NCBI GenBank assembly: GCA_900314495.1
Contig: OMVJ01000005.1
Span: forward strand, 90,726-140,986
DNA length: 50,261 nt
Source: an uncultured Olsenella sp.
GTDB lineage: Bacteria > Actinomycetota > Coriobacteriia > Coriobacteriales > Atopobiaceae
Direction: 5' to 3'
A program made the position numbers and the translations under genes. The stretch's first letter is position 1; each line of letters opens with the position of its first letter. This document shows positions 15,540-18,500 of this stretch, piece by piece. The notes under the pieces are model-generated. The model was given only the letters and a program-made list of their open reading frames with translations. It made no database searches and had not been told where the DNA came from.

Positions 15540-18500
15540 GTCGCGCCCCGTGCGGGCGCGTGGATTGAAACCTTTCGCCAATGGTTGAGTCGGGACGCGA
15601 ACTCGTCGCGCCCCGTGCGGGCGCGTGGATTGAAACTCGCTTGACGCCATCAGCCGTGATATGATATACTGTCGCGCCCCGTGCGGGCGCGTGGATTGAA
15701 ACGACGTCCCCGCGCAGAAGTCCATCCCCGCGCTGGCACAATCTATGGCAATAGACGTCGCGCCCCGTGCGGGCGCGTGGATTGAAACAGGGCAAGCGAC
15801 GGTCAGGTGTACCGAGTCACGTCGTCGCGCCCCGTGCGGGCGCGTGGATTGAAACTCAGTCGGTTGAGTCCGGCATCAAGGAGTACCGGAGTCGCGCCCC
15901 GTGCGGGCGCGTGGATTGAAACTTGACGCGCTCGTTCACCGCCACGCCGAAGGTTAGGGTCGCGCCCCGTGCGGGCGCGTGGATTGAAACGGAGAAGCAG
16001 ACCTACTTCGTGCTCTGCTGCAAGTCGCGCCCCGTGCGGGCGCGTGGATTGAAACGAGCTGGGAGAAGAACGGCCAGAAGCGCTCAAAGGTCGCGCCCCG
16101 TGCGGGCGCGTGGATTGAAACCTGGACTCCGCGGGCGTCGCGACGCTCTGGGCGAGTCGCGCCCCGTGCGGGCGCGTGGATTGAAACAAGGACGCGACCA
16201 CCGACGTCGAGAGAATCAAACGGTCGCGCCCCGTGCGGGCGCGTGGATTGAAACGACACACGCGCGCCATCGACGTCGCGGTTGCCAGGTCGCGCCCCGT
16301 GCGGGCGCGTGGATTGAAACTGACGATAGACCCGCTGGGCAAGTACGTCATCGGCGTCGCGCCCCGTGCGGGCGCGTGGATTGAAACCTCGACAACACCG
16401 GCCTCAAGACGCTGTGGGGCGTCGCGCCCCGTGCGGGCGCGTGGATTGAAACCCCTCGGCGAGCCTCTATCCGTCTTCGTCCACGGTCGCGCCCCGTGCG
16501 GGCGCGTGGATTGAAACTTCGTGCCGAAGATGTCGGACGCGGCCGCGATTGTCGCGCCCCGTGCGGGCGCGTGGATTGAAACTTCGTGCCGAAGATGTCG
16601 GACGCGGCCGCGATTGTCGCGCCCCGTGCGGGCGCGTGGATTGAAACTGACCCTGCTCGTCCATGCGCTTGGTCAGCGCCGGTCGCGCCCCGTGCGGGCG
16701 CGTGGATTGAAACGGCGACTCGACGGAGCTGCCGATGAGCTTGGAGATGTCGCGCCCCGTGCGGGCGCGTGGATTGAAACCCTATAAAGGAATAGTGAGG
16801 TAGAACAGATGTTCAACGTCGCGCCCCGTGCGGGCGCGTGGATTGAAACTGCTCCGTGGTCGTGATACCGATGGTCGCCATCGTCGCGCCCCGTGCGGGC
16901 GCGTGGATTGAAACTCGTGTGCCTTGCCGCCACCAGTGCTCGCGTTGGTCGCGCCCCGTGCGGGCGCGTGGATTGAAACCTCGGGAGCTTGACCACGTTG
17001 CCCGTCTCGGCCGTCGCGCCCCGTGCGGGCGCGTGGATTGAAACCCGTGTAGTGCGTGTGGCCACCGCTGCTCGCCGTGGTCGCGCCCCGTGCGGGCGCG
17101 TGGATTGAAACATCCCAAGCGAGAACTCGGCATACGTGCCTGACGTGTCGCGCCCCGTGCGGGCGCGTGGATTGAAACTGCTTGCGCTCGCGGCCGTCCG
17201 GCGTCTTGCCGGTCGCGCCCCGTGCGGGCGCGTGGATTGAAACCTCAAGCGCCGCAACTACAACATCCACACCGCCGTCGCGCCCCGTGCGGGCGCGTGG
17301 ATTGAAACACCAACGACCTGATGTGCTTCGCGGGGTCGCTCGCGTCGCGCCCCGTGCGGGCGCGTGGATTGAAACCGAACGCCGACGCACCGAGCGGATG
17401 GGAGGCCACGTCGCGCCCCGTGCGGGCGCGTGGATTGAAACTTTCAGACAGGGACGGCCACGGGGCCGTCGGGAGGTCGCGCCCCGTGCGGGCGCGTGGA
17501 TTGAAACCAGGTCCCGTCGTCGTCCACCTCGGTGAGGTCCACGTCGCGCCCCGTGCGGGCGCGTGGATTGAAACAGCCGCTTCGGCGCGAACCTTGGGCG
17601 CATCACCGTCGCGCCCCGTGCGGGCGCGTGGATTGAAACGGCGGCTGCCGCGTGGGCGAGTCCCTGGGCGTGCGGTCGCGCCCCGTGCGGGCGCGTGGAT
17701 TGAAACAGGGCGCTGTAGGTGCTCTCCAAGCCGTCGTTAGTCGCGCCCCGTGGGGGCGCGTGGATTGAAACGCGGGCGATGGAGATGACACGGGCGGCAC
17801 CCCGAGTCGCGCCCCGTGCGGGCGCGTGGATTGAAACGACGCGGACCGCACGGAGGCATACGTCCGCAAGAGTCGCGCCCCGTGCGGGCGCGTGGATTGA
17901 AACGTGTAGGCGTCCGTGATGCCGTAGCCGCTCAGCGTCGCCCCCCGTGCGGGCGCGTGGATTGAAACTTCGAGCGCCAGAGCAGGCGCGTGCTGCCAGA
18001 AAGTCGCGCCCCGTGCGGGCGCGTGGATTGAAACTTCGAGCGCCAGAGCCGCCGCGTGCTCCCCGAGGTCGCGCCCCGTGCGGGCGCGTGGATTGAAACC
18101 AACTGGCCCTTGGCCAAGAAGACGCCCCGCGCGTCGCGCCCCGTGCGGGCGCGTGGATTGAAACCTGGCTTCTCGTCCAGCGACTTGCACAGCGCCTGTC
18201 GCGCCCCGTGCGGGCGCGTGGATTGAAACGACCCGAAGACCCCGACCCTCGACCGCGCCAACAGTCGCGCCCCGTGCGGACGCGTGGATTGAAACTACTT
18301 GGCTGACGGCACGCGCGTCGAGGGCACGGGCAGTCGCGCCCCGTGCGGGCGCGTGGATTGAAACGTAACGATTAGGCACGCGACGAGCACGACCCACGGT
18401 CGCGCCCCGTGCGGGCGCGTGGATTGAAACGCCCACCACCCTCGCGCCGCAGGTGGGGCAATAGTGTCGCGCCCCGTGCGGGCGCGTGGATTGAAACTGC

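Follow-up and report, generated by a model that had tools for sequence, protein, structure and literature searches.

The type I-C locus and its array

The window analysed here, a 50,261-nt stretch of a contig from an uncultured Olsenella sp. (Atopobiaceae), harbours a CRISPR-Cas locus. A scan of its seven cas ORFs placed all of them above the Pfam cut-off, and the type I-C gene set is complete in a single operon, followed by a long array.

7574-15378, + strand: type I-C operon (cas3, cas5, cas8c, cas7, cas4, cas1, cas2)
7574-9964, + strand: cas3, Pfam match above cut-off
10013-10684, + strand: cas5, Pfam match above cut-off
10681-12495, + strand: cas8c (csd1), Pfam match above cut-off
12498-13415, + strand: cas7, Pfam match above cut-off
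13428-14060, + strand: cas4, Pfam match above cut-off
14063-15079, + strand: cas1, Pfam match above cut-off
15070-15378, + strand: cas2, Pfam match above cut-off
15379-15539, + strand: region from cas2 to the first repeat, putative leader from its position
15540-18763, + strand: CRISPR array of 49 repeats and 48 spacers (47 distinct)

The first repeat adjoins cas2, and decayed repeats are found at the opposite end of the array. Based on this layout, the leader side should be at 15540 and the spacers with low numbers should be the newer ones. The spacers are 33-37 nt long, except for spacer 3 (15703-15756), which has 54 nt. On the 3' side of the array, at least six copies of a repeated element around GGGGACGTTTCCCTTnTGnCAC are present between 19240 and 23875, at 19240, 19939, 21046, 22290, 23275 and 23827.

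Two neighbouring spacers encode the same peptide

Among the 48 spacers, two pairs stand out by their similarity scores: the identical spacers 15 and 16 (score 33) and spacers 37 and 38 (score 24), the next best pair scoring 15.

17969-18002, + strand: spacer 37, 34 nt, the newer of the pair
18003-18034, + strand: intact repeat separating spacers 37 and 38
18035-18067, + strand: spacer 38, 33 nt, the older of the pair
16518-16615, + strand: spacers 15 (16518-16550) and 16 (16583-16615), identical tandem copies with a repeat between them

The first 15 bases of spacers 37 and 38 are identical, and 5 of the 33 shared positions differ (16, 18, 27, 30 and 33). An identity of 28/33 is expected by chance with a probability of about 4e-11 for one pair, or 5e-8 over the 1128 possible pairs. 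In frame 0 the two spacers encode the same 11-residue peptide with no amino-acid difference, while the other five frames give one to four differences. The probability that five randomly placed changes are all silent is 0.0004 for frame 0 and 0.012 when any of the six frames is allowed. The array call and the frame comparison thus confirm the initial annotation, which had described two neighbouring spacers with the same start and the same peptide but synonymous differences; its list of codon changes (AGG/CGC, CTG/CTC, CCA/CCC and GAA/GAG) is exact.

Such a pair might also result from the duplication of one spacer inside the array followed by mutation, as spacers 15 and 16 are identical tandem copies and a sister array contains block duplications (see below). 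This origin is extremely improbable for spacers 37 and 38, given that they have diverged by 15% through five changes that are all silent and yet flank an intact repeat. Their lengths are also unequal (34 and 33 nt), and homologous phages vary in the same way at the corresponding site.

The targeted site lies in a portal-MuF fusion gene

We searched IMG/VR contigs with a degenerate codon pattern of the shared peptide. One contig encodes the peptide exactly, with a TTC protospacer-adjacent motif (PAM) directly upstream. The coding sequence represents the 3' part of a portal-MuF fusion gene; the C-terminal 275 residues of its product match the portal protein family phrog_2662 (E 3.8e-49). It is found upstream of genes for a prohead protease, a capsid protein and a head-tail adaptor. 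In tblastn searches the similarity to annotated phage portal proteins was near full-length, and some of these records are named 'portal and MuF-like fusion protein'. The Phage_Mu_F signature (PF04233) reached 23.5 bits, below the curated cut-off of 29.6; phrog head-morphogenesis families and phage annotations support the MuF part.

The peptide belongs to the conserved motif FFERQxRxVLP, located where the MuF part of the fusion protein begins. In 108 distinct homologs, the site mostly reads approximately F-[FWY]-x-R-Q-x-x-x-V-L-P; four loci with internal stops and those that end short of the C-terminus were left out of this alignment. The portal-MuF proteins of the Microbacterium phage BabyYoda and the Arthrobacter phage Shoya have the same fusion layout and near full-length homology, at 35-38% identity. 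By comparison with these and other actinobacterial siphophage proteins, the targeted form falls into a phage group of Olsenella/Atopobiaceae and of the gut or rumen.

Spacer 37 matches the fetched phage loci L003 and L023 at 30/34 bases each, and spacer 38 matches L003 at 28/33, in all cases next to a TTC PAM. At these identities, the source phages would be relatives of the L003 and L023 phages and not those phages themselves. It is therefore possible to name a likely target for this portion of the array: portal-MuF genes of a phage group found in Olsenella relatives and in the rumen. These homologs bear out the earlier proposal that the two spacers come from homologous genes of related phages, sampled at the same site, and the homologous protein together with the silent differences supports the coding frame that it had deduced. 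The TTC motif that it had suggested looking for next to the protospacers is present in the IMG/VR contig and in L003, L023 and L036. As for the 'unknown, well-conserved viral protein' that it had invoked, conservation holds, whereas the protein is a recognizable portal-MuF fusion according to phrog_2662 and the phage annotations.

Other spacers match the same gene

Three more spacers match the portal-MuF gene.

17838-17871, + strand: spacer 35, portal-MuF gene, same strand as spacers 37 and 38
17772-17805, + strand: spacer 34, portal-MuF gene, same strand as spacers 37 and 38
17376-17409, + strand: spacer 28, peptide NADAPSGWEA, portal-MuF gene, same strand as spacers 37 and 38

Together, spacers 28, 34, 35, 37 and 38 have identities of 79-88% to this gene, all on one strand, whereas no control sequence (all 48 spacers, reversed and complemented) exceeds 76% across the same 1.48 Mb. 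Spacer 35 aligns with L003 at 28/34 bases, 219 nt downstream of the 37/38 site, with TAC at the PAM position. Spacer 34 aligns with L032 at 27/34, about 618 nt upstream of that site, with TTT at the PAM position (TTC in L110), and spacer 28 with L006 and L008 at 27/34, about 998 nt upstream, with TGC at the PAM position. The peptides of spacers 34, 37 and 38 outscore all 300 control 34-mers taken from the host, and those of spacers 28 and 35 have an empirical P of 0.02 each when only the peptide is considered. The codon preceding the site is TTC in 22 of 92 homologs for spacer 34 and in 11 of 92 for spacer 35. For spacer 28 the PAM straddles two codons; in 19 of the 92 homologs the first of these ends in TT (CTT in 13, GTT in 6), which would create a TTC PAM ahead of a proline codon.

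Even on the assumption that every one of the 47 distinct spacers derives from this phage family, 2.2 hits would be expected in the portal-MuF gene, against the five observed (P 0.07). Since the fetched loci all bear the portal gene, hits outside it are under-detected.

Exact protospacers of spacers 28, 34, 35, 37 and 38 were not found with the IMG/VR patterns or in the phage records, the fetched loci and the family genomes. The IMG/VR peptide patterns of spacers 35, 34 and 28 gave no match each, and a search of 140 genomes of the family returned only the array itself. Against phage records, none of the seven matches of spacer 37 covers 80% of the query. For spacer 38, 11 of 30 records cover at least 80% of it at about 83-86% identity; with E values of 0.3 or worse, and matches located in tape-measure, hypothetical or unannotated stretches, we took them as chance matches.

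A single source with two copies of the gene, either paralogs in one genome or two prophages in one cell, is a very unlikely origin of the pair. Two family genomes do harbour two portal-MuF loci each (L007 and L017 in G080, L012 and L018 in G124), but in each genome the two loci are on different contigs, with a divergence well beyond five silent changes. Furthermore, the genome that carries the array has no portal-MuF match at E <= 1e-20, and thus no such prophage.

How the pair arose

All these features very probably reflect two captures of one TTC-flanked site, made from two related siphophages (or prophages) that have homologous portal-MuF genes. The pair is a real example of known behaviour, and its novelty is modest; as a natural record, it cleanly documents how one site was captured twice from diverged phages.

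The PAM of spacers 37 and 38 is itself a codon, that of the conserved first Phe of the FFERQxRxVLP motif. The PAM and most of the seed are therefore preserved at this site, even as silent positions drift. The codon is TTC in 73 of 92 homologs. In the set of 91 homologs used to compare PAMs, from which the 16 fetched with the motif itself were excluded, it is TTC in 79%, which ranks it first, jointly with one other site, among the 36 PAMs of the gene. Those 36 TTC PAMs were counted in the reference gene of L004, 17 on the coding (sense) strand and 19 on the template (antisense) strand. Five captures distributed over them would coincide at one PAM with P 0.25, or 0.48 if only the sense PAMs are considered. 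On a genome with 775 PAMs, 8 captures would give P 0.04 and 30 captures P 0.43. Thus, coincidence alone proves neither a hotspot nor priming.

With few conserved PAMs in this gene and such coincidence values, two independent naive captures, in which two phages were sampled at different times at the same conserved PAM without any help from the older spacer, are a plausible origin that we do not favour. This scenario accounts less well for the adjacency of the two spacers in the array (P 0.04), for the location of all five hits on one strand, and for their somewhat high number in one gene.

The chances are about even that the older spacer promoted the second capture through priming or interference-driven acquisition. 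Spacer 38, which is farther from the leader, would have been acquired first and spacer 37 next. As the two guides share their 15 PAM-proximal bases, the older crRNA should still bind the second phage and, once bound, might draw Cas1-Cas2 to it, leading to primed or interference-driven acquisition. In primed type I adaptation, a newer spacer from a relative is preceded by an older one with a partial match, and the hits fall on the same strand. Here the leader-distal spacer 38 matches the newer spacer 37 at 28/33 bases, the first 15 being identical; the order of events is deduced from the array only.

The initial annotation had put forward repeated capture at a hotspot or primed capture after escape. 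The adjacency of the spacers, their common strand and the related pairs of sister arrays lean towards primed or repeated capture, but they do not amount to proof with a coincidence P of 0.25. The 'after escape' part is unsupported, because the guides are identical at positions 1-15, with all differences at positions 16-33, and the PAM is conserved in the homologs.

An intrinsic preference of Cas1-Cas2-Cas4 for this site, or for the portal end of the genome, for instance because it enters the cell early or is near a free DNA end, appears unlikely. In such phages the portal gene is near the packaging end, and five spacers of the array match one gene, as expected from a preferred region. Nevertheless, a motif-pattern search of 395 genomes of the order found no spacer starting at the 37/38 motif in any array besides that of the genome itself. 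Among 688 spacers of family arrays, only spacers 37 and 38 hit this FF site at 80% identity or more.

Comparison with the Legionella type I-C array

A paper by Rao et al. 2017 reportedly deals with I-C priming. Overlapping type I-C spacer pairs have already been published, for Legionella. Two spacer pairs of the Legionella pneumophila Toronto-2005 I-C array correspond to overlapping sites of the mobile element LME-1 and are read there as natural priming (PMC5071653). The same study describes vigorous spacer acquisition by type I-C systems under priming, with a mild preference for the same strand and no enrichment near the priming site (PMC5071653).

The Toronto-2005 array and the array studied here are of the same subtype and share the same seven cas genes and an identical printed 32-nt repeat (PMC5071653). 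In both arrays the members of a pair differ in age. The Toronto-2005 pairs are on overlapping sites of one mobile element, and their older spacer is mismatched to that known element in the PAM or the seed (PMC5071653). By contrast, spacers 37 and 38 have the same start, identical first 15 bases and silent differences, and no exact target was found for them.

Same-start pairs recur in sister arrays

Arrays of this kind were found in 24 of the 140 family genomes searched. We fetched 20 regions from 18 of these 24 genomes and read a few further pieces from the search loci. After L179 and L188 were dropped because their repeat boundaries did not resolve, the sample, with the window's own array, comprised 19 usable array pieces with 689 spacers; one 54-nt spacer was dropped, giving the 688 used for hit counts.

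Within arrays, 34 of 26,488 spacer pairs are related above the threshold, as compared with 1 for reversed spacers. In each of the 34, both members have the same orientation; exact duplicates account for 21 of these pairs and non-identical pairs for 13. Among the latter are nine same-start pairs, which belong to five of the 19 array pieces (three in L196, two each in L184 and L190, and one each in L185 and this array). Two of the three L196 pairs are part of a block duplication, and single-base differences are uninformative on silence. This large duplication of the sister I-C array (genome G120) involves spacers 44-72, with single-base differences among some of the copies.

Six pairs have at least three differences. 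Five of them have an excess of silent changes, with P 0.0095 for spacers 37 and 38 and 0.00075, 0.024, 0.049 and 0.134 for the others, and the sixth, in L194, has none (P 0.57). The proximity of pair members in their arrays is weakly above random, with P 0.04 for spacers 37 and 38 and 0.1-0.53 for the other pairs. The same-start pairs and their silent changes suggest that capture at one site from diverged relatives recurs in these systems. Together with the pair described here, the sister arrays represent a small data set with which recurrent capture, silent drift and the PAM-as-codon geometry can be tested.

In L184 (genome G034), pairs 4/12 and 5/13 have the same order and spacing, as if one phage type had been captured at two sites, twice. 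In L185 (G041, C1 1952000-1966000), a portal-MuF remnant with an internal stop (L016) is located some 5 kb away from a type I-C array, which itself has two related spacer pairs (AIDEAHIIY and LxELPELLSV).

We also considered a portal-gene hotspot across the family arrays. In the fetched phage loci, 10 of the 688 family spacers have hits at 80% identity or more, as compared with 1 for the reversed control; four are from this array and one, L181 spacer 11, is of low complexity. We did not retain that hypothesis.

Spacers are locked to the codon phase

The G+C fractions of the 47 distinct spacers are 0.60, 0.58 and 0.80 at phases 1, 2 and 3 counted from the spacer start (0 of 5000 permutations). 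The same lock to codon phase was detected with P < 0.03 in 10 of 13 type I-C arrays of the family, limited to arrays with at least 10 distinct spacers, and is strongest in the GC-rich ones. Random TTC-adjacent fragments of the fetched phage contigs with a GC content of 0.64-0.72 have the same excess at phase 3 (0.24), and fragments from random positions have none. The PAM, combined with the codon usage of GC-rich phages, thus accounts for the phase of the spacers, and no selection is needed. In such phages, TTC PAMs mostly coincide with Phe codons in frame or, for the template strand, with the xxG|AAx codon junction. Type I-C spacers therefore start in a fixed phase, with wobble bases at positions 3, 6, 9 and so on.

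Selection for phase beyond this passive expectation was considered and set aside, as the array behaves as expected from contigs of GC 0.64-0.72. When a GC-matched pool of TTC-adjacent fragments serves as reference, this array has P 0.04 and L184 has 0/300, and most arrays are not significant.

In type I-E, Cascade is described as flipping out positions 6, 12, 18, 24 and 30 (PMC5965380). By analogy, if the type I-C Cascade flipped bases in the same way, the unread positions would be wobble bases in most spacers, so that guides would tolerate silent drift of conserved phage proteins and retain priming against diverged relatives; we regard this idea as tentative and rather doubtful. If correct, it would explain the recurrent same-site pairs with silent differences in this family, and it yields a simple prediction as to the phage mutations that go unnoticed by a type I guide. 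For spacers 37 and 38, the differences at positions 18 and 30 (two of the five) would then escape the guide. A targeted literature search, whose coverage lacks most subscription journals, found no paper on this codon-phase idea. Across four same-start pairs with at least three differences, 5 of 21 differences are at sixth positions, with no enrichment (P 0.20), and 12 of 21 are on phase 3 (P 0.02).

Other spacers of the array

Spacers 15 and 16, which might be a tandem duplicate or the product of repeated capture, are antisense to a tape-measure motif (IAAASDIFGT, similar to VSAASDLFGT). This match is weaker (empirical P 0.047). Their tape-measure homolog in L003 ends in FGTRN. For spacers 6 and 22, the matches are based on nucleotide identity, with a TTC adjoining, and spacer 20 has a peptide P of 0.003 yet just 61% nucleotide identity. 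For the remaining spacers, peptide matches are near the control level. Lastly, spacer 44 (18431-18465) corresponds, in antisense, to a zinc-ribbon peptide, YCPTCGARVVG, found in the Olsenella-type prophage loci L105 and L035, and this peptide outscores all 300 controls.
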